This document shows, in pieces, positions 7,199 to 31,400 of a stretch of 36,542 nt of DNA. The translations under genes were made by a program, and so were the position numbers. The notes under the pieces were generated by a model that worked only from the letters and a program-made list of their open reading frames with translations, did not search any database and was not told where the DNA came from. Position 1 is the first letter of the stretch, and every line of letters begins with the position of its first letter. The DNA is from a virus: IMG/VR virus record IMGVR_UViG_3300027896_005002, positions 379,488-416,029 of that record, one strand, 5' to 3'.

Positions 7199-7919
7199 TT
7201 GTTTGTCCTGTTGGTATGTTGACTATATCAAGAGTTGATCTATCATTTCTAATAGCACCTGGTGTTGGAACAGTTGTAACATTAGTAAATGATAAAACTC
7301 TACCGGGATAAACTTCTTTTGTTACTTTGAATGTAAAATCATATTCAAGTTGATATGGTTTTTCTGCAATTTCATTAAGATTAAAACTATCAAAATATCC
7401 TCTATACACGGCATCGTCATAATTCATTACTACATAGCCTTGAGCAAGTATACGATTAGTTTTAGAATCATACAATGTTCCATTATTTCTATAAATCTGT
7501 ACAAATTGTTCAAACGATTTAAAATTATCTGTGTCTCTACGACCATCACTTGTTAATCCTAATTGACCGTAAAAACTTGCAGATTGTCCAGATGCTGATA
7601 ATGAATCTAATTGTTCACCCCAATGTTCTTCAACAAAACCAGCCCAAGTTCTTTTATGATTAATTAATTGACTGTATTGTTCAGATAAATTATGTGGATT
7701 AATTTTCATTGTCAAATCTGGTAATGTATAACTACTTGGTAATCCACCAATTTGCCAAATAATTAATTTTTTATTTCTAACTGTACCTTGTCTTACTTGA
7801 CTAGGAATAGGAATACCTGAATATTGATCAAGATTCCTATTAAGTCTGATATCAGTTTCACTAATAGTATTTATCGTGTTTTGTAATCCAAAAATTGCAT
7901 CACTTGTACTTATACCCAT
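7191..7919 (-). CDS. Tube-hub connector/baseplate protein, paralogue 1
   Basis: This 242-aa protein is the longer member of the tandem pair with 6647-7198. The N-terminal 60 residues (SDAIFGLQNTINTISETDIR) are unique. The rest holds the shared core (LKMNP/INPHNLSEQYSQLINHKR, LTSDGRRDT, YRNNGTLYD, YDDAVYRGYF, YDFTFKV) and ends in a 40-residue Pro/Thr-rich tail. It starts in a TAATG overlap with the tape measure stop. In contractile tails the gene right after the tape measure usually encodes a tube initiator or LysM-type baseplate protein that contacts the tape measure C terminus; I infer that role here. The unique N-terminal arm is a candidate for tape measure or hub contact. Confidence 0.7.
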   Translation of the reverse strand: MGISTSDAIFGLQNTINTISETDIRLNRNLDQYSGIPIPSQVRQGTVRNKKLIIWQIGGLPSSYTLPDLTMKINPHNLSEQYSQLINHKRTWAGFVEEHWGEQLDSLSASGQSASFYGQLGLTSDGRRDTDNFKSFEQFVQIYRNNGTLYDSKTNRILAQGYVVMNYDDAVYRGYFDSFNLNEIAEKPYQLEYDFTFKVTKEVYPGRVLSFTNVTTVPTPGAIRNDRSTLDIVNIPTGQTNG

Positions 7920-10576
7920 TAAGCACCTACCGTTTTCTCATCATACAAAACTCTATAGATTATTTGCTCAATTTCTTGTCTGTCGCGCTGATTAATATTA
8001 AGTGTAATATGATTTGTTATTGCTGGCCTTGTATCTACAGCCTTGGCAACACCACCGCCTCCTTTAAGCATAGACATTAATGTATTTAAATTATTAATGC
8101 CAGCTTTTTGTGTTGCATCTTTATCAAAAACATACTCATTTTTATGAACTGCACCTGCAATATCATTATCAGATCCTGTACCAGTATATCCACCACGTGC
8201 ATAACCTGCACCTTTTACTACTGGTGTATTTGGACGAGCAGCAGCAGCCATTCCCTCTGATGCAGCTAATTCTCGACCAGTCATTGTACTTCTATTAACT
8301 TCTATTGTTTTAATATCGACAGGCTTTTGCTTCTTTTCAAGTCCAAAAAATTTTGTAAGATTTTCAATTGCTTCAGCAGCAGATGCTAATAAAGGACCCA
8401 TTGTGTTTGTCAACCAATCATAAATTTGTTCTATTACTTGCCAAATTTTTTCTTGTATAGATGTTAATGCAGCTCTTGTACCCATTTCAATTATATGAGC
8501 TTGTTCTTTTTCCTTTTTTCTTAATTCCTTAGCTTGTTCTGCACCAATTTGTGTTCCAATACCTTCAAATTTTTTACCACTTTTAGAAAATTGCTCTATT
8601 AATCGTAATACTCCAGGTGATATTCCTATTGTTGGCATCAATTTATTAAGTTCAAATCTATGTGATTCAATTGCTTCTCCAAGTTTATCAGGAATAATTT
8701 TGCCAAATTTATCTATAGTTCCACTTAAAAGACCACCGCTTGCTTTAATCATTGCTTTAACTTGTGCTTCAATTCGCGGTCCCACATCCATTTTCTCAAA
8801 TTCATTTAATAATGTAGATGCAGATTTTCCAATAGCACCATTTGTACTCAATTGCATAACTAAAACTTTTTGAGTATCAGTCATTGTGTTAACACTATTT
8901 AACATTTCAGTTGCAAGTTGTTCAGCTTGTTTTTGCGGCATCTTAAGACCCTTTGTCAAGTCTCTAAATGAAGCAGAAACTTGAGTTATATCATTGCCAT
9001 ATATAGCTAAACCTTGAGCAGCATTCATGACATTTGAATAAAATCTTGATGTTGTTATGCCTGCTTCTTTAGCATCATTTTTCATTATAACAAAAGTATC
9101 AGTAATTTGTTGACCCGTTTTCTTAAATTCATTTCTAAGATCACCAGCTTCAGATGCAACCTCTTCAAAAGATTGACCGGTTATTGTACCAATTTGTTCA
9201 ATATCTGCCATAAATTCTTTAAAATTATGTCTTGCAGTTTTTTGTGTAATATCAAGTGCAAAACCAGCTTTAGTTAATGCTTCAACATTTTTTACTGCAT
9301 CTTCATATGTCATTCCAACTTCATTATAAAGACCTCTTAATGATTCTCTAAATGCATTAGCTTGACCAACTGCACCTTTATCAATTGCATCTCCCAATTT
9401 GCCAAATCCTATAGACCCTGATGCTGCTAATTTTAAAATATTCTTCTGTGCAGTTTTAATCTCTTTATTAAAATTCAACAACATCATAATAGCAGTTGCA
9501 ATTCCACCCAATGCCATTAATGGTCCCGCAAGCTTTCCTGCTACAGTCATTAATTCACCACCCACATATCCTGCAGCTCCTGCTCCTGGACCACCACCAG
9601 CAACAACACCAGCTGCAACTCCTCTACCAGCGCTTTTAACAGCTTGTCGTTTTTCTTCCTTCAATATTTTTTTACGTTCAAAAAATCCAATACCTTGTTG
9701 TTTAAGTAATAATCCATGTAACTTTATTTCATTAAGTTGATCTTTTAGATCTTCTTTCTTCATCTTTCTAGTTTTCTTGTATAAATCAAATTGCTTTTTC
9801 TCAAATTTTGATTGCTTTTCATTAAGCGGTAGCATCTGCTTTGCTCGTTTTAATCTCTCTTTTTCAGTTAATTCTGGATGAGTTTTTTGCATTTCTTCAG
9901 CTAATTTTTCTTGCATTGCTTTGCGCTGTTTTATAATATCATTCATCTCAGTATTTAATTCATTTAATCTATCACTAGATCTTTCCTCTTCTTGTGAAAC
10001 ATCCAAAGCAGACTTATCCAGATCTTTTATATCACTTTTAATTTTTAATTTACTTTTATTTAATTGTGATAATTTATCCTCTAATTCATTACTGCGTTTT
10101 TTCAATTTATTTTCATTTTCAATATCAGTTGTTAATTTCTTATTTAAAACACCTTCTAATTTTTTAATTTTTAATGCATCTTCATCAGAATCTGTCCCAT
10201 TTTCTTTAAGCTCCTGTATCTTCTGTTGAATCTTAATTAATTCATCTTCTGTTGCTTTTCTAGTTTCTATAGCTTTATTAGTATCAACTTCCAACATTTT
10301 ATTTTCAATATTCAATTTTTTAATCTGATCTACAACCAACTTATGTTTACCTTTGGTTTTAGTAATATTGTCAGCAATGGCACTCTGCTTATCTAATATA
10401 GTCGAATGTTCTTTCTGTAATTTCAATAAATCTTTTTGAGTTTTCATCCATTTTGGATCAATCTCTACAGAACGTAACCCTTCAGTTATTTGTTTACTCA
10501 ATTCCTGCATTTTTTGTTTGTCAATTTTACCAAAATTGACATCAACAGTCATTGATGCATCACTGTTCCGTGCCAT
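7919..10576 (-). CDS. Tail tape measure protein
   Basis: This 885-aa protein shows tape measure architecture. Residues about 20-300 are charged coiled coil (runs rich in Lys/Glu/Leu/Ile). A Gly/Ala-rich hydrophobic part follows near 320-370 (GVVAGGGPGAGAAGYVGG, then ALGGIATAIMMLLNF). Then come helical repeats with TAP-like features (KLAASGSIGFGKLGDA; YEDAVKNVEALTKAG; EVASEAGDLRNEFKKTG). The C terminus has the common ending GGYTGTGSDNDIAGAVHKNE, then YVFDK. By the usual ruler rule of about 1.5 Å per residue, a tail near 130 nm is expected. The gene lies after the chaperone genes and before the connector pair, the classic order. It overlaps the upstream gene by 17 bases and has a GGAG ribosome site. 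It is cleaved or ejected with DNA in known systems; no clear peptidase or muralytic domain is visible. Confidence 0.9.
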   Translation of the reverse strand: MARNSDASMTVDVNFGKIDKQKMQELSKQITEGLRSVEIDPKWMKTQKDLLKLQKEHSTILDKQSAIADNITKTKGKHKLVVDQIKKLNIENKMLEVDTNKAIETRKATEDELIKIQQKIQELKENGTDSDEDALKIKKLEGVLNKKLTTDIENENKLKKRSNELEDKLSQLNKSKLKIKSDIKDLDKSALDVSQEEERSSDRLNELNTEMNDIIKQRKAMQEKLAEEMQKTHPELTEKERLKRAKQMLPLNEKQSKFEKKQFDLYKKTRKMKKEDLKDQLNEIKLHGLLLKQQGIGFFERKKILKEEKRQAVKSAGRGVAAGVVAGGGPGAGAAGYVGGELMTVAGKLAGPLMALGGIATAIMMLLNFNKEIKTAQKNILKLAASGSIGFGKLGDAIDKGAVGQANAFRESLRGLYNEVGMTYEDAVKNVEALTKAGFALDITQKTARHNFKEFMADIEQIGTITGQSFEEVASEAGDLRNEFKKTGQQITDTFVIMKNDAKEAGITTSRFYSNVMNAAQGLAIYGNDITQVSASFRDLTKGLKMPQKQAEQLATEMLNSVNTMTDTQKVLVMQLSTNGAIGKSASTLLNEFEKMDVGPRIEAQVKAMIKASGGLLSGTIDKFGKIIPDKLGEAIESHRFELNKLMPTIGISPGVLRLIEQFSKSGKKFEGIGTQIGAEQAKELRKKEKEQAHIIEMGTRAALTSIQEKIWQVIEQIYDWLTNTMGPLLASAAEAIENLTKFFGLEKKQKPVDIKTIEVNRSTMTGRELAASEGMAAAARPNTPVVKGAGYARGGYTGTGSDNDIAGAVHKNEYVFDKDATQKAGINNLNTLMSMLKGGGGVAKAVDTRPAITNHITLNINQRDRQEIEQIIYRVLYDEKTVGA

Positions 10577-12902: not shown

Positions 12903-13541
12903 TTATGCCAACGATATCAATTTACTGATAGTAGTAGGATCACGATCAACAAGTGTATCACCATAAGCACCGCGACCAGCAGCAGGATCATAAACATCAG
13001 TAATGTTTACTGCACAATCCTGCATAATCGTTGATGCACCAATTTCAAATGTAATATTATAATCTTGCATCCAGCAACCTTCATAATAAGTCTGAATAAT
13101 ATTACCTGTCAGTCCACCTGTTTTACTTGTTCCTCTTTGTACTGTATAGGATCCTGTGCCAATGAAATCAGGAACAATAATTTGTTCCTTAATATCAAAA
13201 GGCCAACGATGATGTTTCAATGACCGAATAATTCCTGAAGCACCAGCATTATAACCAAGAACCTGCATAATATTTACAAGATACATTACAGCAATACTTA
13301 AAGAACCAGTTAAATCAGTGACACCAACTGATTGTTCAGCTGTTCTATCACCATGACCGATTCCTCTTACGGGTTCTGTCGGTCTTGATTGTGCCGGCGC
13401 CCAAGATTGTAGTAAACCAATTTGGTTTGCTGTAGGATCAGCTCCACCTGGATGAGCAGTAAATACTTTTACTTTTTGACTATTAAGTAAACTAGTATTT
13501 GGAGTAGATCCTTGTTGATAAATATAACTATTAGTAGCCAT
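12903..13541 (-). CDS. Tail tube protein
   Basis: This 212-aa protein lies between the sheath (with one small gene) and the chaperone genes, the normal site of the tube gene. Size and pattern fit gp19-like tube proteins: a polar N terminus (SYIYQQGSTPNTSLLNSQKV), a mid-region with SLSIAVMYLVNIMQVLGY, and strands with IIVPDFIGTGSYTVQRG, YYEGCWMQDYNITFEIG and IMQDCAVNITDVYDPA near the end. A strong GGAGGG ribosome site sits 6 bases before the ATG, the best in the window, as expected for a protein made in hundreds of copies. A stem-loop follows the gene. The protein would form stacked hexamer rings inside the sheath. Identity rests on order, size and strand pattern, not on a searched match. Confidence 0.85.
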   Translation of the reverse strand: MATNSYIYQQGSTPNTSLLNSQKVKVFTAHPGGADPTANQIGLLQSWAPAQSRPTEPVRGIGHGDRTAEQSVGVTDLTGSLSIAVMYLVNIMQVLGYNAGASGIIRSLKHHRWPFDIKEQIIVPDFIGTGSYTVQRGTSKTGGLTGNIIQTYYEGCWMQDYNITFEIGASTIMQDCAVNITDVYDPAAGRGAYGDTLVDRDPTTISKLISLA

Positions 13542-13932: not shown

Positions 13933-16704
13933 TTAGAGTTTTGCTCTAATATTAAATGTCACTCTAATATATGATAATTCAAATACTGGCTTATAGAAAG
14001 CTTCAGCTACTAAATAGTTAGGATCAGTGTCTGACGGTGTAGCTGTAACATTTGTATAATCAGAAATAATTTCAGCTTCCTTAAGAGCTGATAATGTTGC
14101 AGCGAGAGTAGAAGCAACATTACTTGCAGTATTGGGTAAGAATTTCTTACCAATATACTGATCAAGACTAGATCTAGCCTGAATTTGAACCTCATCCATA
14201 ATTGTAACAATGTTCGGTGCTTTATTAAATGGGTTACTCATATCAGTTGTTAAAGCATGACGAACTTTCAAAATTCCACTATCAGAAACAATTACTGTTA
14301 TACCAGCAGAAGCAGTTTCATCCATTTCAATCTCATCCATATCTCGAACTAACCGTTTGAATCCAGTAATTGTCTTTCTTGTCATAGGTTCTGCAACATC
14401 ATATGCTGTAGTTACATTCAATCCTACAAGAGCGGCAGCAATGTAACTACCATCAACAATATATTCAGATTCAACTCCTCGTTCATCAGTTAATCCAATT
14501 ACAGCACCATCAGGATAAACTGCAACAATACGAGAATAACCTAAAGCTTTTGCATAAACTGCAGCATCTTGAGATTCGGTTCCTACAGCAAATCCAATAA
14601 AAGCAGTTCTTTCTGATCTTCGTCTTTCAGATGACATTGTAGCTAAGTTAGTCTTAAGTGCAGATATTACTGTAGCAGAAGTAGTAACAACATGAATTAC
14701 TCGAGGTTTAATTCCATTAATCGGCTTTTCTGTCTCAGCTAAAGCTTCAATAAATGCTTCATCTGATGCTACATCCTGACCAGGTTCCTTTAAAACTTGT
14801 TTACACATAACAGCAACAGCACCATTAACCATCATTAAAAATGCTGATAATGTAATTTGATTACTAATGTCCAAAGCACCATATTCATTAGTAATATCTT
14901 TAAATAGTGTAAATACTTTAGGCGTAAAATCTGTCTTTTGATAATAATATGTGATGTAATATGTAGAACCTACTGAAGGTTCACGTCCACTTCTATCAAA
15001 AGTCTGAATATTTGTTACATCACCAACACCAGTGTTCAAAGTATCAGAAACAATCAACCTTAATCCATACATAACATATTCTGGTCCTTGACAACTAGTT
15101 ATTACAGCTGACGTTCCGGTCTTGAATGGACCTGCAATACCAGTACCAGGACCACCAGATCTTGTGCCAGGAATGTCATCATTATGACAATGAATTGTAA
15201 TTGTGTCACCTGGTGAATATGTTCCATCTGGTGTAATAGTAAATTGTAATCCTGTACGAGCATCAATATATGTACTTCCTGTTTTACCGGCACCATTAGA
15301 TCCTAAAATATTAGTAGATGTAACAGCAAAAACAGTCGAACTTGAAAATTGAATTGTTACAACTTCGTCAACTGCTTTAGTTTTACTAGCTTTTAGATGC
15401 GCACCAGAAGCGTCCATAAAAGTCGGTGTAGGTGTAGTTGAATATCCTGTAACCTTAGCATTAAATAATGAACCATTAGCTGAAGTACTAATCTTATATG
15501 TTCCAGTTCCTGCAGCACCTGCAATAACAACTTGTATTGCATAAGATTCATCCATTAGCTGACTTCTCCAGTATGACACTTCAACTAAAGATCCACCACC
15601 AGGAATATTCTTCAAATATACTTTTCCTGTTTCACCATCAACTCTTGTAACTGCAACTTGTGTACCATTTACATATACAGCTGCTTTTGTTGGGTCATCA
15701 GTAATAACATTGCGACCATTACCGTCAACAATTGGTAAATATTTGACTGTTAAAACATTTTCAACACCGGTAAATTGTGACGAAACATCTTCTTTAATAA
15801 TTCGATCATCAACTAACATTGTTGCAATCTGGTCTTCAAAATAAATGGATCCAGAAGTATGCGTCATTACAGTTTCTAACACTCCAGCACCCCATTGTAT
15901 CTTATTGCCATCAAGAACAACAAAATCAACACCTTCAACATAGTTTGCTAAATCTGGAGAATCACCAACTGAAACAACACTCGTTAATCCACTTTGCGGC
16001 AATAAATCAAAAGTATCAGCATATTGATTAAAGTAGTAAGTCAATGTTACTGTATCAGTTATTAATGGTGCAACAGCAAATGTTACAACACCATCAATAC
16101 CATTAACATCAGAAACTGTAACAACTAAACCATTAACTTTTGCAACAACATCAGTAATAGTTGTTGTTGGAACACCACTACCTCGACCATCAACAATTGG
16201 TTTATGTGATGTATAAAATATTCTATTAGTTCCATTAGCTTGTGTCGATTCATCTTCATTATTGATCTTTGTATCAGTCAATTTGAAATAATAAGTAATT
16301 GCAACAAAATCAGTAGCTTTTGGAGGTAATTGAAGAGTTACAAGACCATTAAGACCATCAACTCTAACAACAGGTACTGGATTATTATTAACACTTGCAA
16401 TTACATCAGATACTCTATTTGTTATGGTCCCAGTACCATCACCAGTTACTATGGGATAATAAGTAACTTGAAATACCGTATTTAAACCATCAGCTTGTCC
16501 AGAAACATCTTCATTAGAATACTTGTTGTCGATATAAGCAGATGATCCACGAACAACATCCTGATTCAACAACAATTTCTGTTCTTGACCTGTGCCAATA
16601 ACAATAGGAATTCTTAATCCGCCAAGTAAACTTGCAACGTTCGGATCTAACAAAGTCCTATCATACACACCAGGCGCCAAATAACCGGAAACAAATGCTG
16701 CCAT
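13933..16704 (-). CDS. Tail sheath protein with three inserted Ig-like repeats
   Basis: This 923-aa protein is a contractile tail sheath. The N terminus (FVSGYLAPGVYDRTLLDP), the mid-core near residues 650-760 (KPRVIHVVTTSATVISALKT; RTAFIGFAVG; GYSRIVAVYPDG; YIAAALVGLNVTTAYDVAEP) and the C terminus (QARSSLDQYIGKKFLPNT; AEAFYKPVFELSYIRVTFNI) follow the sheath pattern. It is long for the family because residues 65-142, 149-226 and 305-380 are three related beta repeats with consensus ED.S.Q..G.N, Y.PIV.G.G, VNG..V.V..V.G..G.V and V.ITYYF. These are probably surface domains on the outside of the tail. A related repeat occurs in the 675-aa protein at 22984-25011. An AGGAAA site precedes the ATG. 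The sheath would contract to drive the tube through the host envelope. Confidence 0.92.
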   Translation of the reverse strand: MAAFVSGYLAPGVYDRTLLDPNVASLLGGLRIPIVIGTGQEQKLLLNQDVVRGSSAYIDNKYSNEDVSGQADGLNTVFQVTYYPIVTGDGTGTITNRVSDVIASVNNNPVPVVRVDGLNGLVTLQLPPKATDFVAITYYFKLTDTKINNEDESTQANGTNRIFYTSHKPIVDGRGSGVPTTTITDVVAKVNGLVVTVSDVNGIDGVVTFAVAPLITDTVTLTYYFNQYADTFDLLPQSGLTSVVSVGDSPDLANYVEGVDFVVLDGNKIQWGAGVLETVMTHTSGSIYFEDQIATMLVDDRIIKEDVSSQFTGVENVLTVKYLPIVDGNGRNVITDDPTKAAVYVNGTQVAVTRVDGETGKVYLKNIPGGGSLVEVSYWRSQLMDESYAIQVVIAGAAGTGTYKISTSANGSLFNAKVTGYSTTPTPTFMDASGAHLKASKTKAVDEVVTIQFSSSTVFAVTSTNILGSNGAGKTGSTYIDARTGLQFTITPDGTYSPGDTITIHCHNDDIPGTRSGGPGTGIAGPFKTGTSAVITSCQGPEYVMYGLRLIVSDTLNTGVGDVTNIQTFDRSGREPSVGSTYYITYYYQKTDFTPKVFTLFKDITNEYGALDISNQITLSAFLMMVNGAVAVMCKQVLKEPGQDVASDEAFIEALAETEKPINGIKPRVIHVVTTSATVISALKTNLATMSSERRRSERTAFIGFAVGTESQDAAVYAKALGYSRIVAVYPDGAVIGLTDERGVESEYIVDGSYIAAALVGLNVTTAYDVAEPMTRKTITGFKRLVRDMDEIEMDETASAGITVIVSDSGILKVRHALTTDMSNPFNKAPNIVTIMDEVQIQARSSLDQYIGKKFLPNTASNVASTLAATLSALKEAEIISDYTNVTATPSDTDPNYLVAEAFYKPVFELSYIRVTFNIRAKL

Positions 16705-18195: not shown

Positions 18196-19425
18196 TTATA
18201 ACACCATTGTTTTTGAATTAATTAAAGAATACCTTGGAACGGGTCTTACAAGCATCGGTGTCAAATCATCAACAGGCTGTAGACCTACTTTATAATCAAC
18301 ACCGACTTGTGTAGAATCAAATGATCTTGCAGCTCTAACACCAAATTCAGCATCATCATATCGACCCGTGTCTTCAACTCTACTCAAAAATACTTGTTTA
18401 ATTACACCTAATATTGGTTGATACGCTTCCCATTCAACATTAATATCAAATGATAAATCTGCTAAAAAAGCTAACTCATTTGATGTTTTTACTTCATCTT
18501 CTTCAGTCTCGCCTGATATATTAACATTCTCAATGTATATTCCATCATTTACTAATTTATCTTGTAACACTGACCACAAATACATTGCTGTTAGATCTGT
18601 TAATTGTTCTTCAGTATCAGTGTCTTGTGCTGTTATAGATAAATTTACCGTTAATTTCCATTTGCCCAAATAAGATCTTGCGACTTCCTGTCTTGATGGA
18701 TACACTACTACAACTTGTAATCCACCCTTTTGCAAAAAATTACCAAATGCCAAAATTACACCAGGAATTGCAGTATTATTATAAGTTTCTGATTCAACTT
18801 CAATTACCTGTGATTTTTCACCAATATACTGATAATCTGCAGTAATTTGTCCATAATCCTCTATCGGTTTTAAAAAGATAATTCTACCATTAACATAATC
18901 TATTGTATAATGTAAATCTCGTAACAATCTTTGAGCAGTTTCAGATATTAGATATTCACTTCCTGGATTTATGTTCTTATATTTTAAATCTGCATATGTT
19001 ACAGGAGTCACTTGATATTCAAGTATTCCAACTTGAATATCTAATACCTCATCTGCAACAGTTAAATATGGTTGAACTGTAAACTTTTCATTATCAACCA
19101 TTTCAACAACATAAAATCCCGGCTTTACAAGATTTTCAACATTTCGAATATCTTCTCTAACCCATTCAATCATACGTCCAGGTCTATTTTTCAAATTTGC
19201 TAATGTCGTATAAGATGTTATAATCCCTTTAAAATTATCAGCACCCAATTTAACATATTGCGCACTTGCAGTTTTAACAACAATAGAAAATTTTGGTCTT
19301 TCTGGCAATTGAAATTTGTTTGTTATAACAAGACTGCCATTACCAAACACTGGATGGTCTACAAATAAAGCTTGCAACTCCTGTATTATAATTTTTTTTA
19401 CAACGTTCGTGATTCGAAAGAACAT
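18196..19425 (-). CDS. Neck/tail-terminator or connector structural protein (putative)
   Basis: This 409-aa protein starts MFFRITNVVKKIIIQELQAL behind an AAGGTG site. The N-terminal strands (GSLVITNKFQLPERPKFSIV) and the mid-region (EYLISETAQRLLRDLHYTID, then YVNGRIIFLKPIEDYGQITA) lead to a C-terminal part with WKLTVNLSITAQDTDTEEQL, LWSVLQDKLVNDGIYIENVN and LAFLADLSFDINVEWEAYQP. That last part resembles tail terminator/completion domains that hold a strand of the form DL.F.INVEWE. It lies upstream of sheath and tube and downstream of the HK97-gp10-like gene, the usual neck region. The VNGRI.. strand resembles the Ig-like repeats of the sheath, but that match is weak. The role is inferred from order. 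Confidence 0.5.
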   Translation of the reverse strand: MFFRITNVVKKIIIQELQALFVDHPVFGNGSLVITNKFQLPERPKFSIVVKTASAQYVKLGADNFKGIITSYTTLANLKNRPGRMIEWVREDIRNVENLVKPGFYVVEMVDNEKFTVQPYLTVADEVLDIQVGILEYQVTPVTYADLKYKNINPGSEYLISETAQRLLRDLHYTIDYVNGRIIFLKPIEDYGQITADYQYIGEKSQVIEVESETYNNTAIPGVILAFGNFLQKGGLQVVVVYPSRQEVARSYLGKWKLTVNLSITAQDTDTEEQLTDLTAMYLWSVLQDKLVNDGIYIENVNISGETEEDEVKTSNELAFLADLSFDINVEWEAYQPILGVIKQVFLSRVEDTGRYDDAEFGVRAARSFDSTQVGVDYKVGLQPVDDLTPMLVRPVPRYSLINSKTMVL

Positions 19426-19480
19426 ACTCTGTCACCTTGTTTGATCAATGCTATTAGGATTAATTGTTTTCATATACTCA

Positions 19481-19756
19481 TTAAAATGATTTATGAAATC
19501 TTGTAAATCTATCTACAGGAAATTCACCTTCAATATCATCACCTATTTTATCTTCTTCAGGTGAATAATTAGCAATAGAAATCTTTCCAGGTGTAGCAAT
19601 CTTTGTTACTTTATAAATAGATCCCTTATTGAGACCTTGTACCTGATCAACTAATGTCACAGGATCACCAACTTTAAATACTTTTGCAACTTTGTCAGTA
19701 ATTCCTGCTTCTTTCATTAATCGATCAATAACCCTAGATTCAAGTTCATTATCCAT
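19481..19756 (-). CDS. Small SH3-like barrel protein
   Basis: The start at 19756 (91 aa) is chosen for its AAGGAG site 5 bases upstream; a longer reading adds 14 basic residues without a site. Residues 1-25 form a helix (MDNELESRVIDRLMKEAGI). Residues 30-75 form a small barrel (FKVGDPVTLVDQVQGLNKGS, then IYKVTKI, then ISIANYSPEED), similar to SH3/KOW-type folds. Charged ends frame this core. It lies between the actin-like gene and the 409-aa gene with 13 and 55 bases on either side. I do not recognise a specific family. SH3-like barrels of this size can bind peptides, nucleic acid or a structural partner; no choice among these can be made from the sequence. Confidence 0.65.
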   Translation of the reverse strand: MDNELESRVIDRLMKEAGITDKVAKVFKVGDPVTLVDQVQGLNKGSIYKVTKIATPGKISIANYSPEEDKIGDDIEGEFPVDRFTRFHKSF

Positions 19757-19769
19757 ATTTTCTCCTTTT

Positions 19770-20858
19770 TTATTCTTCTTCATATTCGGATATAGCACTA
19801 TATAGACATCCTCTAGCTACTGCAAACATGGGATCCTGTGCCATTCTAATATCTTTAATATTAAATGGAAATTTAATTTTTTCAATTTCTTTTTTGAAAA
19901 CAACATCAAAAGATTTTATAAGTGATGTTCCACCAGCTAAAACAATTGAAATAGGTTCTGGAAATTCGGGAACATCTTCAGCTTGTGACAATTTCTTTTC
20001 AAAACATTTAATAACATAATTTATAAGATTTATATAAAAAATGCGTATAGATTCTTCATGTCGACCTTTTGGAGCTAATAAATCAATGCCTGCTTCTTTA
20101 ATTGCAGTTATTTTTGATGTTCTTTCACCAATTGCCATGGCAGCACTATTATCAATCCAATCACCTGATCTTGATACTGAAAATTCAATTGATGCTGTCC
20201 CTAAATAACTCAAACATGCATTACACATACCGGCACCAAAGCTAATTGCTAATCCAGTAAAATTTTCCTCATCAAGTTCAGAATAACAAATAGCTCTTGC
20301 TTCATTAATGGGCTGTGCATCAAAGCCAAAAGATTCAATAAATGATTTTAAAACATTCTCGTGATAAATAATATTATAATCGGCATCAATTGGATTTGCA
20401 GGAATTGAAAATTTACAAACTTCTTTATCACAAATAGGTTCACCCAAAACATTTTTAATAATTGTTTTTATCATTAATAATGCTTCAGGTTCTCTTGTAC
20501 TAATGACACCTTTTTGTAAAGGTCTGCGAACTTCTCTCTTAAATATATTTGCAAAATTAAGAGCTTCTTGACCGATTACATATAATGATTTAGCATCATC
20601 AGATTCAATATAATGTGCTTTATTTAATGTCAACATATTACGAGAAAGTTTATCATTTTCAATATCAAAAAAAGCATCTCGTTGTGTTCTAATCTTTACT
20701 TCATCATCTTCTTGCATTATGGCACTATTAATAAATGCTGTGCCGATGTCTGCACCTATACCTTTTTGACGTTTAACTGGGATGTCCGTCTTTTCTTGTT
20801 TTTCATCAGTTGACATCTTGACCTTCCTTTTTAATTGTTTAATTTTCATTTGTTTCAT
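19770..20858 (-). CDS. Actin/Hsp70-fold ATPase-like protein (MreB/StbA type)
   Basis: This 362-aa protein shows actin-superfamily motifs in order. Phosphate-1 is GIGADIGTAFINSA near 33-46. A DnaK-like path follows (FSIPANPIDADYN near 150-162; IESFGFDAQPINEARAIC near 174-191). Phosphate-2 is GLAISFGAGMCNA near 202-214. Then comes SVSRSGDWIDNSA, and the adenosine motif ISIVLAGGTSLIKSF near 305-320. The usual phosphate-2 Asp (as in DLGGGT) is Ser206, so ATP hydrolysis may be altered. Two starts have good sites: 20858 (AAAGGAG) and 20816 (AAGGAAGG); I keep the longer. It follows the 215-aa gene after 10 bases. Phage actin homologues are known for plasmid or DNA positioning; one inside a tail operon is unusual. 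Filament formation is not shown. Confidence 0.8.
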   Translation of the reverse strand: MKQMKIKQLKRKVKMSTDEKQEKTDIPVKRQKGIGADIGTAFINSAIMQEDDEVKIRTQRDAFFDIENDKLSRNMLTLNKAHYIESDDAKSLYVIGQEALNFANIFKREVRRPLQKGVISTREPEALLMIKTIIKNVLGEPICDKEVCKFSIPANPIDADYNIIYHENVLKSFIESFGFDAQPINEARAICYSELDEENFTGLAISFGAGMCNACLSYLGTASIEFSVSRSGDWIDNSAAMAIGERTSKITAIKEAGIDLLAPKGRHEESIRIFYINLINYVIKCFEKKLSQAEDVPEFPEPISIVLAGGTSLIKSFDVVFKKEIEKIKFPFNIKDIRMAQDPMFAVARGCLYSAISEYEEE

Positions 20859-20868
20859 AAAATCTCCT

Positions 20869-21516
20869 TTAATTTTTATTAATCTGCTTTATCTTCTTAG
20901 CAACTGATTTAGCTTTAATATCTTTTTGCTGTGTTACATCACCAATATCACCATTGATATTTGTTTTTAATTCTTTACCATCATCAATATTAACAAAAAC
21001 ATTACCAACAGATTTATCTATTTCATTATTAACTTTCTGTGGTTGTACTGTCGGTAATTTATCTACAATCTTATTTACAATTTCATCAACATCAACATTT
21101 TTTGATGATTCCTTTTTTAATTCCTGTAATATTGCAGCTGTTGATTGACCCAACATTTCGCGAAATAATTCTTTTATTTCATCTTTATTTATACTAGGTT
21201 TCTGTTCTTGATAAACTACAGGTTCATTAATAACTGGTTTTTCAGATGAATATGACATCTTCTGAACATATTGTTTACCTTCAATAACATCAATCCAATC
21301 TTTTGAATAAGCTGCTAATAAATCAGCAGATCGTCTAACTTCATCAACAGAAATATCTAATATTTGATTATATTGAACAATTTTATTAATATCTCTTATT
21401 ATTACCTGACCAACAACTCTACCAATAATTCTAACATTCTCAGGCCTCAAAGTCTTCATATGCTCATACCACATTTGCTCAGTTAAAGAATATCTATCAT
21501 TTAAAATGATATTCAT
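20869..21516 (-). CDS. Helical protein upstream of the actin-like gene
   Basis: This 215-aa protein starts in an ATGA overlap with the HK97-gp10-like gene. Residues 1-85 look like a compact helical domain (LTEQMWYEHMKTLRPENVRI, then VDEVRRSADLLAAYSKDWID). The rest is polar and linker-like with two amphipathic helices (KDEIKELFREMLGQSTAAIL; VDVDEIVNKIVDKLP) and a basic Lys-rich end (KAKSVAKKIKQINKN). I recognise no family. It is directly before the actin-like gene, so it could be its partner (as ParR is for ParM) or a neck protein. No DNA-binding motif is evident, so the ParR idea is only a hypothesis. Confidence 0.65.
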   Translation of the reverse strand: MNIILNDRYSLTEQMWYEHMKTLRPENVRIIGRVVGQVIIRDINKIVQYNQILDISVDEVRRSADLLAAYSKDWIDVIEGKQYVQKMSYSSEKPVINEPVVYQEQKPSINKDEIKELFREMLGQSTAAILQELKKESSKNVDVDEIVNKIVDKLPTVQPQKVNNEIDKSVGNVFVNIDDGKELKTNINGDIGDVTQQKDIKAKSVAKKIKQINKN

Positions 21517-21965
21517 GTTAAACCTTCATCAATTGCAATATCCATACAGGCATCTCTAATTTTATTGACAGATATATCAAAAAAACCTTTGCCACGTTTA
21601 AATCCTGGATGAACCCACTTTCCAGATTTATTTATATTTCGTCTATTGGCAACACGAAAAATTGTTTGTCCCCTACTAGTTGTAATTGGTATCGGACCTG
21701 CATCAACTAAATATCTCATTTTATGACGTTTAACACCATCATTCAATATACCGGCGTAATCTGCTCCAATTTCAAATTTTACACCATCTCGTTTAATTGT
21801 TGCACCAACATTATCAATCAAATTTCTAGTATTTATTAAATGTCGTTTAGTAATCTCATGTTTAAAAATCTTTACACCTTTTCTTGCAACTTTCTCAATA
21901 ATTTGACGTCGTTTTGAATCTAAAGCTCTATCATTAACAACTATTGTTTTAAGTTGCAATTTCAT
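21513..21965 (-). CDS. HK97 gp10-like tail completion/neck protein
   Basis: This 150-aa protein fits the HK97-gp10-type neck family. It has a helical, basic N-terminal half (RALDSKRRQIIEKVARKGVK, then ITKRHLINTRNLIDNV), then strands with GVKFEIGADYAGILNDGVKR. The hallmark end HPGFKRGKGFFDISVNKI is preceded by ITTSRGQTIFRVANRR. In known phages this protein sits at the head-tail joint, where it helps tail attachment. It has a weak ribosome site and starts 2 bases after the upstream gene ends, so it is probably translated by coupling. Its presence anchors the identity of this stretch as neck genes. Confidence 0.75.
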   Translation of the reverse strand: MKLQLKTIVVNDRALDSKRRQIIEKVARKGVKIFKHEITKRHLINTRNLIDNVGATIKRDGVKFEIGADYAGILNDGVKRHKMRYLVDAGPIPITTSRGQTIFRVANRRNINKSGKWVHPGFKRGKGFFDISVNKIRDACMDIAIDEGLT

Positions 21966-21967
21966 AA

Positions 21968-22420
21968 TTATACAACATCAGGATCTATTGAAGGATCCGG
22001 CATAATTGGTGCATGCGGTATAATAAATGGTTCAGCTGTCGTAAATGGAAATGATACTAAATTATACCTTGATTGTTGATCCCATTCATATTCAGAAATT
22101 GTTGCTCGATCACTATTTTTTTTATTATAAACATTCATCGCTGTTTGATCAAATATAGCTTGCGGCATCTCACTTGACTGCTTACCGACTAAAGACCGTT
22201 GTTCCTTAAATAATTCAGGCTCAACATAATTTTTATTACGTTCAACAGGATCACTTATATTAACAGTTGCAATTTCTGTTGAAATATCGTCATCATTAAA
22301 CTTTTGTTTTATTGTTGCAGTATTTGGTCCTAATGGCAAATTTGCAACATCATTTAAAGATCCACCCAAATTTCTTTTGCCTAAAATATTTGCCGGAGCT
22401 ATAATTACATCATTTGACAT
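21968..22420 (-). CDS. Neck-region protein of unknown function
   Basis: This 150-aa protein is polar and probably partly disordered (NILGKRNLGGSLNDVANLPL; NISDPVERNKNYVEPELFKE) and ends in a Pro/Asp-rich segment (IIPHAPIMPDPSIDPDVV). There is no signal or membrane segment. It has an AGGA site 6 bases before the ATG and lies 8 bases after the BIG2-type gene. I do not recognise a family. Position between the Ig-like protein and the HK97-gp10-like protein suggests a head-tail joining or minor virion protein. Confidence 0.65.
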   Translation of the reverse strand: MSNDVIIAPANILGKRNLGGSLNDVANLPLGPNTATIKQKFNDDDISTEIATVNISDPVERNKNYVEPELFKEQRSLVGKQSSEMPQAIFDQTAMNVYNKKNSDRATISEYEWDQQSRYNLVSFPFTTAEPFIIPHAPIMPDPSIDPDVV

Positions 22421-22428
22421 AATTAATC

Positions 22429-22869
22429 CTATGACACTGTTATTACTATATGATTACTTTCAAACCCACCACCAATTTTTGCATAAATTTCTGCTGTACC
22501 TGTCGCAACAGCTGTCACTAATCCTTCAGAAACTGTTGCATGACTAGCATTAGTTGTAAACCATGTTGCAACACCAGTAACATCTTTACCTTGAGCATCT
22601 GGTGTAATTGACGGTGAATATTGTTTCTCTCTAAACAATAATGCTAATAACTGAATTGTATTACCAACAACCATTGTTTGAGAAAGACCACAATAAATTA
22701 CAAGATTTCTTGGATTATTAAGAAATCCGTCTTTCATTAAAGTTCTAGCATTTGCAAGTGAAAACGGCGTTAATTGAGAAAAAGTATCTACATCAGAATT
22801 TGTTACTACAGATTCATTATACTCTCTTAACGCAGTACGAGATTGACCTAATTCAATAAAATCGCTCAT
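22429..22869 (-). CDS. Neck-region protein with BIG2 Ig-like domain
   Basis: This 146-aa protein has an N-terminal helical half (SRTALREYNESVVTN; FSLANARTLMKDGFLNNPRN) and a C-terminal BIG2-type Ig fold from about residue 65 (IQLLALLFREKQYSPSITPD; GVATWFTTNASHATVSEGLV; TAVATGTAEIYAKIGG; HIVITVS). BIG2 domains on phage virions are usually surface decoration or host-binding modules. The ATG has an AAAGGAG site. The first five codons (MSDFIEL) resemble the start of the upstream 675-aa protein (MSDFDDE), perhaps by chance. A role as a neck whisker or decoration is inferred. Confidence 0.75.
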   Translation of the reverse strand: MSDFIELGQSRTALREYNESVVTNSDVDTFSQLTPFSLANARTLMKDGFLNNPRNLVIYCGLSQTMVVGNTIQLLALLFREKQYSPSITPDAQGKDVTGVATWFTTNASHATVSEGLVTAVATGTAEIYAKIGGGFESNHIVITVS

Positions 22870-22983: not shown

Positions 22984-25011
22984 CTAAAACATGGAATTTT
23001 CAAAATTTATAGTTCTGCCCTTAGGATCATCAAAATCAGGTCCTTTATCAGTTCTTATCTTATCAGCTTCTTGAAGCTCTCCATCTTTTATAACATTGTC
23101 ATCTGTATAATGAGCATGTGGATTTCTTAATCCAACAAAATTTCTATAATTAAGTAAATCTAACTTCATTGATGTCACAAACTCATATCTTATATCTGTC
23201 ATGTCGACACTTTCAACTGAAAAATGTTGTTGTGTCGGAATACCTTTTATATCCGGTGTTGAAATAGGACCTATAGCATATATTTGTCCTCGTCTACGAA
23301 CAATAAAATCTCTTTGCGTAATCGTTGGCGAAATTGTTGTCCATGTTTCTTCTATATTTTCAAGTTTCATACCTCGTTCAGTCCACATTATCTTTTGATC
23401 AGACTTAAATGGCGATATTCTTATTTCATAAGGTCCTTCATAACCACCAATAAAAGCAGTTCCCCAACATTTTTTACAAGGACCAACTTTTGCTTGTTTA
23501 TGTGTGCGTTCATCTTTCAAATAACATTCACATTTCCTGCCTGTTGTCTTTTTAATAAATAATAATACTCTTTCTCCGGCTTGATCTAATAACCATGAAT
23601 TTCTTCTTATTGCCTCTAAATACATATAATCTAATCGTTCACCGTTTGCTGTCACAGGTTCACATATATTAAGTCTAGTCTCACTACCATCACTTAAAAT
23701 AGTTGTAACTTTATAATGAGGTAATGCTGACAAATTCATTCTAAATAAATTGACCATATACTTATAAGTAATTGTTACAACAGATGTCGGTAATGGAACA
23801 ACAGGTTCAACCCATTTATTTAAAACATTATCAAATACTCGTTCAGTTTCAAGTTTAACAATGCCCGCTAGACCATCAACAGATTTTATTGTAGCTAATC
23901 TATTATCAACAAGAACTTGAACCGATGCCGGTTTATCAGAATATGGATCTAGATTTGTAGTTGTATTTGTTTTATTGGTAACTATAGGAACATTTCTAAC
24001 TTGGATATTATAATCACCTCTAACATCTTTTATTAATGGCAAAAATGTTAATCCATCATTTATATGAAAATAATCAAATTGTACTTCTAATGGTTTATCT
24101 GAACTTTTAGCATAAAAACTTACTTGTAAATCAATACCAGAAAATCCTAAATAAGATCTCATTAACACCCAACTACTACCATCAAAATAAGATGTTGATA
24201 CATCAGTTCCTGTTCGACTTATTCTAAATTTACCTTTAAAATCAACTGTTACAATCTCAGTTCTATCAATTATTTGTGAACTAACCATTAATGTACTAAC
24301 ATAATAATCAAATGCAGCAGTGCGATATCTAGATATTTTTACAAACGAATAATCATCAATAGATACAATAAACCCGACCTCAGAATTAGATAAAACATCA
24401 GTCACAGGCCAATTAAATATTTCAAATTGTGTCTCAATATCAAATTGATCTCTCATATAAAATTTTGATCTAAAATATGCTTGTCTATTGTTTCCAAATA
24501 CATCAACAAAATGAAGAGCACCAGATTGATTTATTAATCTATCAGGATCTAATGCTTGCCATCTGCTATCATTCACAATTTGACCAGGAAAATCGGTAGC
24601 AGCATCGTCAACTTTCATTTTAAATTTAAATTGTTCTGATACATCTTCTTGTACAACCAAGACATTCAATGCAGAGTCTCTATAAAATGTCGTCGTTACT
24701 GGAACGTCATTTACTTTAATAAAGGTTTTGTCTTTTACAGAATAAACATGATCTGCAGTTATCGAATCATGTGAAACAATATTCTGTAAATATTGAGCAT
24801 CAACTTGTGATCGATAAATATTATAGCCAATAATATCAGAATTCATAGGCATCATATCATCCCAACAAATATCTAATGTGTTTTTAATATAAGGAAAACT
24901 TACCGTCGCATTAGTTGGAACAATATTATTTTCTTTTGGCACAATTGTTATTGGCGGTACAACATGACTATGTTCATGTTCAATGCAATTTTCATCATCA
25001 AAATCGCTCAT
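22984..25011 (-). CDS. Multidomain structural protein with CxC...CxxC motif
   Basis: This 675-aa protein is modular. An FN3-like strand set lies near 37-70 (LDICWDDMMPM, then DIIGYNIYRS). A concanavalin/LamG-like sandwich lies near 150-318 (EVGFIVSIDDYSFVKISRYR; STSYFDGSSWVLMRSYLG; LEVQFDYFHIND). An Ig-like repeat at 340-420 matches the sheath repeats (VPIVTN, VDNRLATIKSVDGLAGIVKL, VVTITYKY). A C-terminal domain carries C494-x-C496 and C512-x-x-C515 (CECYLKD; GPCKKCWGTAFIGGYEGP), a likely metal-binding knuckle. It lies between the glycan genes and the neck genes, with a weak ribosome site. I infer a large neck, collar or baseplate protein; the Cys motif with GTAF.GGY recurs in phage structural proteins that I cannot name further. 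Confidence 0.7.
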   Translation of the reverse strand: MSDFDDENCIEHEHSHVVPPITIVPKENNIVPTNATVSFPYIKNTLDICWDDMMPMNSDIIGYNIYRSQVDAQYLQNIVSHDSITADHVYSVKDKTFIKVNDVPVTTTFYRDSALNVLVVQEDVSEQFKFKMKVDDAATDFPGQIVNDSRWQALDPDRLINQSGALHFVDVFGNNRQAYFRSKFYMRDQFDIETQFEIFNWPVTDVLSNSEVGFIVSIDDYSFVKISRYRTAAFDYYVSTLMVSSQIIDRTEIVTVDFKGKFRISRTGTDVSTSYFDGSSWVLMRSYLGFSGIDLQVSFYAKSSDKPLEVQFDYFHINDGLTFLPLIKDVRGDYNIQVRNVPIVTNKTNTTTNLDPYSDKPASVQVLVDNRLATIKSVDGLAGIVKLETERVFDNVLNKWVEPVVPLPTSVVTITYKYMVNLFRMNLSALPHYKVTTILSDGSETRLNICEPVTANGERLDYMYLEAIRRNSWLLDQAGERVLLFIKKTTGRKCECYLKDERTHKQAKVGPCKKCWGTAFIGGYEGPYEIRISPFKSDQKIMWTERGMKLENIEETWTTISPTITQRDFIVRRRGQIYAIGPISTPDIKGIPTQQHFSVESVDMTDIRYEFVTSMKLDLLNYRNFVGLRNPHAHYTDDNVIKDGELQEADKIRTDKGPDFDDPKGRTINFENSMF

Positions 25012-25015
25012 AATT

Positions 25016-25501
25016 TTATTCTTTCAAAAAGTTTTCAATGATTGGAAATAATTCATCTGCTGTATTAAAAGCATTAACATTTTGTTTTGTGTTAGTCCAA
25101 ACATCAAATTGATTAACTCTCAAAAATGATTTTGATTTCAAAATATTTTTATTATATGAATATCCAAAAATATTTGGATCAGACAATCCAAAAATAGCTA
25201 TTCCTGGAGTTACCAAGCTCATACAATTGCACATATGAGGTAAAAAATTATCAACACTTATCCAAGAATAACAATCAGATAACTTTTGTTGCAACTTTTC
25301 AAATGATAACCCGTACATTACGTCATCTACATTTTGTAAAACTTGTTCACCAAATGTACCAATCTGAATTAATTTGTAATTTAATGTTTTAAGTAATGGT
25401 ATTAGTTGTATCCAATATGGATACGACTTTGGATGTGTAGGTGTAAAACTATAAGGACTAATAATAATAAAATCACCAACCTTTTTAGTTCTAATATTCA
25501 T
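25016..25501 (-). CDS. GT9-like glycosyltransferase, C-terminal half (split gene)
   Basis: This 161-aa product is the second half of a GT9 (heptosyltransferase-type) Rossmann domain: DFIIISPYSFTP, then WIQLIPLLKTLNYKLIQIG, and SWISVDNFLPHMCNCMSLVT followed by PGIAIFGLSDPN. The matching first half ends the 577-aa gene upstream. Removing 586 bases between the two AATAT copies (26084-26080 and 25498-25494) restores a single frame reading QMYNIRTKKVGDF. The gene starts in an ATGA overlap with the inserted homing endonuclease. Alone this half lacks the N-terminal acceptor domain, so it is probably inactive unless the two pieces pair. It may be a separately expressed subunit or a decaying remnant. 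Confidence 0.75.
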   Translation of the reverse strand: MNIRTKKVGDFIIISPYSFTPTHPKSYPYWIQLIPLLKTLNYKLIQIGTFGEQVLQNVDDVMYGLSFEKLQQKLSDCYSWISVDNFLPHMCNCMSLVTPGIAIFGLSDPNIFGYSYNKNILKSKSFLRVNQFDVWTNTKQNVNAFNTADELFPIIENFLKE

Positions 25502-26079
25502 TTATTTTTCCATAATTTTTTATGTGATTTACTTATTTTTCTTTTAGTTTCTTCAGAATGATGAAATTTACCTTTTAAAGCTTTACTTAATTTCTCTTTT
25601 GTTTCTTTAGAAAGATGTCTACCTAACATCGGTGGTTTTTGATTTTTTCTAGCTTCTCTTATTTTTGTTTTTGTTTCTTCTAAAAGATGTTTACCTTTCC
25701 AAAAACCTTTTCGTCCAAACATTCCATTTTTTTTACCTCTATTAGCTTCACCGATTTTTCTTTTTCTTTCATCAGAACATGGTAATCCGCATGAACCATC
25801 ACCGCCTTCAGTATCATTAGTTAATGGCCATTTTAATTTTCTACCAAAAGCTATCCAATTTTTTTCTCTTTCCTGCCAAATATTTTCATCACATTGTTCT
25901 AAAATACAATAATTTGGTTTTAATCCTTGTTTAAGTAAAGATTGAATCCAATAATATTTATGTGAAAGGCGCTTACTCTTAAGATGACCATTAAATCTAT
26001 CATATGGATTATTTGCTTTACCAATATAACGTACTTCTAAAGTTTGAGGATCAATTAATCCATAAATAAATGTTTTCAT
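25494..26079 (-). mobile_element. Homing endonuclease insertion splitting a glycosyltransferase gene
   Basis: The insert is 586 bases, flanked by AATAT direct repeats (26080-26084 and 25494-25498), and consists almost only of the GIY-YIG gene. It has no room for a group I intron core, and its length is not a multiple of three, so it is neither a spliced intron of known type nor an intein. Excision restores the host frame (…MYN-IRTKK…). This is best read as a free-standing homing gene inserted into a coding sequence, with stop and start overlaps (ATGA) at both ends. Confidence 0.65.
25498..26079 (-). CDS. GIY-YIG homing endonuclease with NUMOD3 repeats
   Basis: This 193-aa protein has the GIY-YIG nuclease core at the N terminus (FIYGLIDP, EVRYIGKANNPYDRFNGH; the Arg/His/Glu set is plausible at R43 region, H32 and E-rich part). 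NUMOD3-type DNA-binding repeats follow from residue 100 (SDERKRKIGEANRGKKNGMF; LLEETKTKIREARKN; LSKETKEKLSKALKGK; SEETKRKISKSHKK). Size and layout fit phage homing endonucleases of the Seg/I-TevI kind. It overlaps both neighbours by ATGA and lacks a strong ribosome site. Its neighbours are the two halves of one GT9 domain, so it has inserted into that gene. The cleavage site would be the uninterrupted GT9 sequence near AATAT. Confidence 0.88.
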   Translation of the reverse strand: MKTFIYGLIDPQTLEVRYIGKANNPYDRFNGHLKSKRLSHKYYWIQSLLKQGLKPNYCILEQCDENIWQEREKNWIAFGRKLKWPLTNDTEGGDGSCGLPCSDERKRKIGEANRGKKNGMFGRKGFWKGKHLLEETKTKIREARKNQKPPMLGRHLSKETKEKLSKALKGKFHHSEETKRKISKSHKKLWKNK

Positions 26080-30182: not shown

Positions 30183-31400
30183 CTATCTTAAGTCCCTTGC
30201 TGGTCTGCCCCATGTTCCAGACGCATTAATGTTTGATAATAATGATCTTTTCCAAGTTCCCGCAACATTAACCCATAATATAGGTCTACGTTTCCATACT
30301 CCTGCTATATTTATCATTATGTCAATTCCTGTTTGCATTGTTACGAAACTATGAGCACCAATAACTGCAACAGGAGATGAATAATTAGTAAGTGTATTAT
30401 TACCAATTTGTCCAAATGTATTTGTTCCCCAACCCCAAATAGTCCCAGTACTTTTCAAACCAAATATGCATGGTCCTCCAGTAGTTCTAATTTGAATAAA
30501 ACTATGAGCACCTATTACTGCTACAGGTGATGAATAAGAATTTGTTGTGTTATTTCCTATTCCATTACCAAAACCCCATGTCCAAACAGTTCCATCAGAT
30601 TTTAAACCAGCAGTCGTAAAATTTGTAGCTTGTTGAATATCAATAAAACTATGAGCACCTACAACTTGTACAGGTGACGAATAAGACGTAAGATTATTAG
30701 TACCAAGTTCGCCATAAGAATTACTTCCCCAACACCATACTTGTCCTGTTGATTTTAATCCAAATGTTGCATATGTACCCAAAGCAAATGCAATAAAACT
30801 ATGATTACCAACAACAGCCACTGGAGATGTTTTTGCAGTTATACTATTATCACCTAATTGACCAAATCCATTAGAACCCCAAGTCCATAAACTACCATCA
30901 GCCTTTAACCCAGCAGAAAAATTAGCAGAAGTTATACCACCAGTTCTGATTACTCGAAAACTATGACTTCCTACAACCTGAACTGGAGAAGAACGATTTG
31001 TAAATGTTCCATCACCTAATCCTGCAGCTTGATTATTTCCCCAAGCCCAAGCTTGTCCATTAACTTTTAATCCCATACACAAACGAGCACCTGTTATAAC
31101 TTGAATAAAACTATGAGCCCCTACAATAGTTACTGGAGAAGAATAGGAATTTGCAGTATTATTTCCTATTTGTCCATAATCATTTGCACCCGTTACCCAA
31201 GCAGAACCATCTTGTTTAAGTCCAATGTCATTTGTAAGTCCTGCTTCAATTATCATAAAACTATGAGCGCCTAAAACAGCAACTGGGGAAGAATAAGATG
31301 TTGGTTGAGTATTAATGCCTATTTGACCATAAGAATTACAACCCCATGACCACATTAACCCGCCGGTTTTATAAGCCGTCATATTATTTGCACTACCCAT
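30183..31400 (-). CDS. RCC1-repeat beta-propeller tail fibre/receptor-binding protein
   Basis: This 405-aa protein has seven RCC1-type repeats, each starting like WSWGCNSYGQIG and continuing SSPVAVLGAHSF. The starts read WSWG, WVTG, WAWG, WTWG, WCWG, WTWG and WGWG, enough to close a seven-bladed propeller. One blade (WTWGFGNGIGNNTT) is shortened. The C terminus carries three short repeats (INIAGVWKRR, VNVAGTWKRS, INASGTWGRP) that occur at the ends of phage fibre proteins. It has a TAAGGAG site 4 bases upstream and follows the large collagen-like fibre. Propellers of this kind on phages are candidates for receptor binding. It is a good candidate for the host-contact tip, but partner and ligand are unknown. 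Confidence 0.82.
   Translation of the reverse strand: MGSANNMTAYKTGGLMWSWGCNSYGQIGINTQPTSYSSPVAVLGAHSFMIIEAGLTNDIGLKQDGSAWVTGANDYGQIGNNTANSYSSPVTIVGAHSFIQVITGARLCMGLKVNGQAWAWGNNQAAGLGDGTFTNRSSPVQVVGSHSFRVIRTGGITSANFSAGLKADGSLWTWGSNGFGQLGDNSITAKTSPVAVVGNHSFIAFALGTYATFGLKSTGQVWCWGSNSYGELGTNNLTSYSSPVQVVGAHSFIDIQQATNFTTAGLKSDGTVWTWGFGNGIGNNTTNSYSSPVAVIGAHSFIQIRTTGGPCIFGLKSTGTIWGWGTNTFGQIGNNTLTNYSSPVAVIGAHSFVTMQTGIDIMINIAGVWKRRPILWVNVAGTWKRSLLSNINASGTWGRPARDLR

Follow-up and report, generated by a model that had tools for sequence, protein, structure and literature searches.

A stretch of 36,542 nucleotides at the end of a virus record of 416,029 bases (hereafter the window) encodes an actin of the volactin family inside a contractile-tail operon, and the gene directly before it, its partner, carries a C-terminal motif that is common to genes located beside cellular volactins. 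We propose that these two genes make up a volactin-type system of viral actin and adaptor, in which the adaptor would dock on the neck of the virion. We consider the chances of this reading to be about even; within it, positioning, as opposed to assembly, is the less certain half.

An actin of the volactin family in a contractile-tail operon

Both open reading frames of the preliminary description are present, with the actin (362 aa) at 19770..20858 and the partner (215 aa) at 20869..21516, separated by 10 nt. The surrounding operon is a contractile-tail operon. In the order of transcription, its 5′ part comprises a fibre gene, p675, p146, p150, the neck gene, the partner and the actin, and its 3′ part comprises p105, p409, p379, the sheath, p122, the tube, the tape measure and baseplate-side proteins (labels composed of p and a number were coined for this analysis from the protein length in amino acids). 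The HK97-gp10-like neck or tail-completion protein (21513..21965) matches phrog_5, 'tail completion or Neck1' (E 6.9e-6), its Pfam match to PF04883 (E 0.016) being below the cut-off; the tail sheath protein (13933..16704) matches phrog_2839 (E 4e-26) and gp178 of Bacillus phage G (E 5e-69); and the tape-measure protein (7919..10576) matches phrog_24 (E 5e-11). Homologues of phage G proteins are also encoded by p675, a conserved neck-side gene upstream of the pair (22984..25011; gp175, E 1e-31), by p409, a neck/tail gene conserved on the downstream side of the actin (18196..19425; gp177), and by the gene for the tube-like protein (12903..13541; gp179/gp180). The 105-aa gene p105 (19481..19798), which overlaps the 3′ end of the actin gene by 29 nt, was found in 13 loci and is limited to close relatives. 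All of the genes located so far lie on the minus strand. The structural operon also contains a homing-endonuclease-like gene at 25498-26079 (phrog_314, E 5e-16), and an RCC1-repeat (regulator of chromosome condensation) protein is encoded at 30183-31400, with the fibre on one side and tail genes on the other.

The preliminary description of the 362-aa protein as having an actin/Hsp70 fold was borne out, in that the protein is a full actin-fold member of the volactin family. It aligns with positions 3-321 of the 321 positions of the Pfam profile PF25216 (Volactin) at 272.5 bits (cut-off, 35; E 7.8e-81), whereas the match to MreB_Mbl is only marginal and far weaker (28.5 bits; cut-off, 27), and no HSP70 match was found in Pfam. 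Among the NCBIfam models, neither MamK, the best (29 bits versus a cut-off of 400), nor MreB (23.9 versus 366) reached its cut-off. Profile searching, which might have assigned the protein to a non-actin family, placed it in an actin family. The AlphaFold2 (AF2) model, the input of which was a 49-row alignment from the scanned loci with rows from phage records left out, has a pLDDT of 92 and a pTM of 0.89, with the first 25 residues disordered; the protein stops after the actin fold and lacks the substrate-binding domain of Hsp70. Comparison with solved structures, which had been suggested for ParM, MreB and DnaK, identified the MamK filament as the closest fold (5ljv; VIA Z 28.5, 296 residues, 2.9 A), followed by BeeR, MreB and actin, and the viral models near this fold in BFVD are of Hsp70 types alone, including closterovirus Hsp70h. 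A sequence search of solved structures gave no real match; the identity of the window actin to haloarchaeal volactin-family members is 41-43%.

The phosphate-2 motif SxGxGM.N, with Ser in place of Asp, and the motif GD.xD are present in the window actin, and Ser206 had been proposed to alter nucleotide hydrolysis in this protein in particular. However, Ser206 is invariant in all 163 family members sampled (83 viral and 80 cellular), as are Asp37 and Gly39 (phosphate 1), Glu186 (connect region), Gly208, Gly210, Asn213, Gly232, Asp233, Asp236 and GG 309-310 (adenosine motif); one of the two seed patterns for this sample contained the Ser, and the planctomycete members (SCGGGMF) entered by the other. 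The Ser was also read in the volactin orthologue of Haloferax mucosum (L132). Volactin of Haloferax volcanii (HVO_2015), which shares the PF25216 family and, judging from this orthologue, the phosphate-2 Ser with the viral actin, forms dynamic filaments in vivo, the tips of which attach to the membrane (PMC10869688). Therefore, because Ser206 occurs in all members sampled, it is a family trait and not a local change, and its interpretation as a lesion of hydrolysis was rejected. In a codon comparison of five close relatives, with dS near saturation (mostly >1 for the actin), the dN of the actin was 0.13-0.23 and that of the partner was two to three times as high. With its nucleotide site retained, the viral actin would bind nucleotide and probably polymerise into a filament.

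A profile scan of IMG/VR identified 492 stretches encoding relatives of the actin, the best 80 of which were read, and a further 200 matches came from prokaryote genomes scanned in the same way; the cellular carriers among the best 80 of these 200, which were likewise read, are haloarchaea, Planctomycetota and assorted bacterial MAGs. No match to phages was found at the DNA level, and tblastn against 50,697 deposited phage records matched LR745208 (485 kb) and LR756511 (595 kb) only, both of which are metagenomic huge phages. In a tree of 63 actins, 47 phage actins form a single clade (support 94/84) that excludes the planctomycete, gas-vesicle-type bacterial and haloarchaeal actins, and the tail-operon form therefore appears to have been inherited along with the operon. 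An exception to this rule is the actin of LR756511, additional to these 47, which forms a separate long branch in the tree, lies outside the tail operon and has no recognised partner. Exactly one copy of the actin is present in each of the first relatives (7/7) and in each of the large virus records (15/15), and no Tubulin-family gene was detected in the 15 large actin-bearing records at the search threshold, PhuZ not being among the controls. We found no earlier account of a tail-operon actin in the titles and abstracts of the volactin papers listed or by searching the open-access literature, and the word 'actin' is absent from the text of the huge-phage paper. Among the haloarchaeal carriers, two genomes (G025 and G026) each have a second volactin-family copy within open frames of >1000 aa, and in H. 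mucosum a CetZ tubulin gene (L132:1657-2820), which was not seen in the other haloarchaeal loci, lies 450 bp after volactin.

Co-inheritance of the actin and its partner

Gene order was read by running HMMs of the window genes over all loci. The order p675, neck, partner, actin, p409, sheath and tube recurs across the viral loci, with the neck-like match located elsewhere in L050, L091 and L094. Among informative loci, defined as distinct (duplicates removed) and with flanks present on both sides, 79 contain both the partner and the actin, two contain neither, and none contains only one of them. The order partner-actin-p409 is kept in 79/79 informative loci with the pair, which upholds the place assigned to the actin at the outset, between a tail-completion gene (phrog_5) and sheath-side genes (phrog_2839).

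A second scan was seeded with p409 alone, to avoid seeding by the actin, and covered 80 loci. The actin is present in 70 of them, the contig ends upstream in four, and the remaining six (L180, L225, L210, L246, L216 and L217) have neither actin nor partner, with no volactin found elsewhere on their contigs. The preliminary description had named absence from all close relatives with the same tail block as evidence against its view; instead, nearly all of them carry the gene. In the p409 tree, in which contigs ending upstream were marked 'actin' by default, the pair-less loci are scattered and fall within actin-bearing groups at three or more points. The partner and the actin were thus lost together at least three times, although, because adjoining genes can be removed by one deletion, this co-loss is weaker evidence than it would be for unlinked genes. 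In phage G, which is cultured and has a related tail operon, homologues of p675, p409, the sheath and the tube follow one another in order (gp175, gp177, gp178 and gp179/180), and no actin or full partner was found. Because the pair is nearly universal but absent from phage G and from derived lineages, we deduced that it is old, yet dispensable for such a tail.

Some of these loci contain additional genes. A Ferritin/Dps-like gene lies between the partner and the actin in L060 (6942-7634; PF00210, E 6.5e-7), L037 (7274-7912), L074 (6751-7449) and L052 (7044-7946), the Pfam assignment being for L060 only, and a similar gene is retained in the actin-less loci L210 and L246. In L005, inserted ORFs that by eye resemble mobile endonucleases (4908-6050 and 7390-8436) stand on either side of the actin.

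A C-terminal motif common to genes beside cellular volactins

The partner had been described as an adaptor-like neighbour with a helical head. It remains adaptor-like, but the head proved to be a small beta-rich domain (strands 26-31, 36-39, 44-48, 51-55 and 74-78 in the AF2 model) preceded by a single N-terminal helix. The protein consists of this N-terminal alpha/beta domain (approximately aa 10-80), a middle that varies and a C-terminal motif that is conserved, with further helices predicted at 110-152 in the middle and 200-213 at the C terminus; AF2 confidence is restricted to residues 10-80 and to some of the helical middle. Although the sequence diverges fast, 42 homologues align as head (V.I.DL...V......I....A..S.DL..AI), variable middle and tail (PvFIPskI.pedaeanIkvqse.s.ggsvsdAaaALKalRkk), the core of the tail being FIP...A..ALK.LRk. 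Searches of Pfam, PHROGs and NCBIfam gave chance matches only, with no DNA-binding family, and a peptide-pattern scan that used this partner by itself gave no match, so that the family is visible only by profile. The head has weak fold matches (Foldseek E 3e-4 to 1e-2) to phage G gp158, which resembles the N-domain part only, and to small phage proteins that stand alone. For two such proteins, of Xanthomonas phage DIBBI and Iodobacter phage phiPLPE, the genes, paired with the fold matches by length and place and not by accession, lie directly after capsid-region genes; sequence support for these two matches was not found. The tail motif is absent from gp158, from the DIBBI and phiPLPE proteins, and from complete loci without actin.

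A tail profile made from 95 phage partner tails and zero cell sequences was run on every ORF of 80 cellular loci. The gene directly upstream of volactin was top-ranked in 46/56 haloarchaeal loci (the genes being mutual orthologues and not 46 independent cases), 5/8 planctomycete loci and 5/11 gas-vesicle-type loci. The best E for an upstream gene was 2.5e-6, and E was < 0.05 in 31 haloarchaeal, three planctomycete and two of the 11 gas-vesicle-type loci. Four further matches had E < 0.05: those in L108 and L116 are upstream genes overlooked by the longest-ORF rule, that in L096 is the gene directly downstream, and that in L131 is an ORF where no upstream gene had been called. In a reversed-protein control, first rank was obtained in 3/56 haloarchaeal loci, and 20 column-permuted profiles gave mean first ranks of 1.65 (haloarchaeal), 0.5 (planctomycete) and 1.15 (gas-vesicle-type); none of these control scores was significant. 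One permuted profile reached 18 haloarchaeal first ranks, so that rank counts are lumpy through orthology; the lack of significant control scores is the better control.

The haloarchaeal upstream gene is DUF7139 (E 3e-48), of which we found no mention in the literature searched. Volactin has an upstream gene with the same tail motif, as in the phage pair, but is itself cellular, shapes disks and has no tail genes nearby. The DUF7139 proteins have N-terminal hydrophobic stretches, which by eye suggest a multi-pass membrane protein, and the motif occurs once or twice in their tails (e.g., L122:4978-5895, L153:4992-5894 and L114:5006-5899, as in other haloarchaeal loci). Because the apparent membrane N terminus fits the tip-tethered volactin filaments (PMC10869688), we regard the DUF7139 protein as a candidate membrane anchor of these filaments. 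In planctomycetes, the upstream gene encodes a coiled-coil-like protein of 450-700 aa. Bacterial actins of the family occur in gas-vesicle clusters (GvpL/F, GvpA/J and GvpK), often adjoining a 130-200-aa protein that is winged-helix-like by eye, and possibly constitute an actin system for gas vesicles; such clusters (L096, L100, L102, L104, L105, L106 and L107) also contain ArsA-like and CDC48-like genes. No phage tail genes were seen near motif-paired cellular volactins in the loci viewed.

Possible roles of the viral actin and its putative adaptor

What might such a pair do in a tail operon? The simplest explanation of these facts would be that a single actin type and a single grip motif recur while the remainder of the adaptor is exchanged to suit the cargo. 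The 362-aa nucleotide-binding actin would polymerise, the C-terminal motif of the partner would grip it, the small N-terminal domain would dock on the virion in its neck region, and the filament would keep in place, transport or spatially arrange virions (or tails) within the host cell, whether finished or still being assembled. The neck-like cargo end and the location of the genes in the neck/tail block make the virion or the tail the likely cargo, and the dispensability of the pair, though not decisive, favours positioning over an assembly role in the strict sense. The partner is an adaptor candidate on the basis of the AF2 model, the alignment of its homologues and its co-inheritance with the actin.

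Filaments of this kind have precedents. MamK, the magnetosome actin, acts on magnetosomes, and ParM/ParR and AlpC/AlpA act on DNA. MamK, the best PDB fold and NCBIfam match to the viral actin, positions large particles but belongs to another family and has another cargo. In AlpC/AlpA of prophage CGP3 and in ParM/ParR, an actin and a small adaptor that joins the filament to the cargo are co-encoded; these adaptors, however, bind DNA sites, the genes lie outside a tail operon, and no sequence kinship was found. PhuZ of the nucleus-forming jumbo phages is likewise a viral cytoskeleton of large phages and positions capsids and DNA, but has a tubulin fold. The cargo of PhuZ and AlpC is capsids or DNA, and neither is known to be encoded among tail genes.

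An actin-fold ATPase and its partner might instead form a tail or neck assembly machine, acting as a chaperone or in the control of length or joining and then leaving the particle. The position of the pair among neck, sheath and tube genes, constant across the 79 informative loci that have it, and the resemblance of the partner N-domain to small neck-region proteins are consistent with this, but the same tail operon functions without the pair in phage G and in at least three derived lineages, the closest folds are those of filament formers, the chaperone features of Hsp70 are absent, and the motif is likewise paired with an actin in cells where no phage tail genes came into view; we thus consider a transient assembly factor unlikely. 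Closterovirus Hsp70h, an actin/Hsp70-fold ATPase, is reportedly linked with the virion tail, and by analogy both proteins might be built into the neck or tail. This would suit a late structural operon and the Hsp70 homologues found nearest among viral models. However, Hsp70h is of the Hsp70 type and comes from an unrelated virus, the likeness (TM 0.6, 13-16% identity) is generic and expected for any actin/Hsp70-fold protein, and relatives dispense with the pair, which makes incorporation into the virion quite unlikely.

DNA partition, or the positioning of replication sites in the manner of AlpC/AlpA, is in our opinion very unlikely, even though DNA positioning is the best-known use of phage actins (PMC4446434, PMC5539076) and the pair has the adaptor gene ahead of the actin gene. 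The pair belongs to a late structural operon and not to replication genes, the partner resembles neck-region proteins in its N-domain and matches no DNA-binding family, although its fold matches leave room for binding to DNA, and the interval 19400-22500 contains only chance-like two-copy repeat families and no centromere-like iterated repeats; a partition system was dropped on this last ground. Finally, the viral actin could disturb the cytoskeleton or shape of the host, either by co-assembly with a host volactin or by capture of host filaments through the adaptor tail. The phage tail motif is recognisable beside cellular volactins, which makes cross-binding conceivable; yet these viruses supply their own actin, and most known cellular carriers are haloarchaea, whereas the phages come from many metagenomes, so that we attach hardly any probability to an attack on the host.

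Returning to the actin-plus-adaptor reading, an actin has been kept inside the tail operon across a large, uncultured group of huge phages, and our findings suggest that these viruses build a filament of their own by which their particles are held or moved. That huge phages possess a dedicated virion cytoskeleton, composed of a tail-operon actin filament and a neck-docking adaptor that grips it by a short tail motif common to membrane, coiled-coil and gas-vesicle-cluster neighbours of archaeal and bacterial volactin-type actins, is a possibility that we rate somewhat below even. The common C-terminal motif turns the guess of an adaptor into a testable statement, names DUF7139 as a candidate membrane anchor of volactin that is workable at once in H. 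volcanii, and points to a possible bacterial gas-vesicle actin system. If the proposal is true, cell shape, gas vesicles and virions would all be served by a single actin and a single grip motif joined to interchangeable cargo domains.
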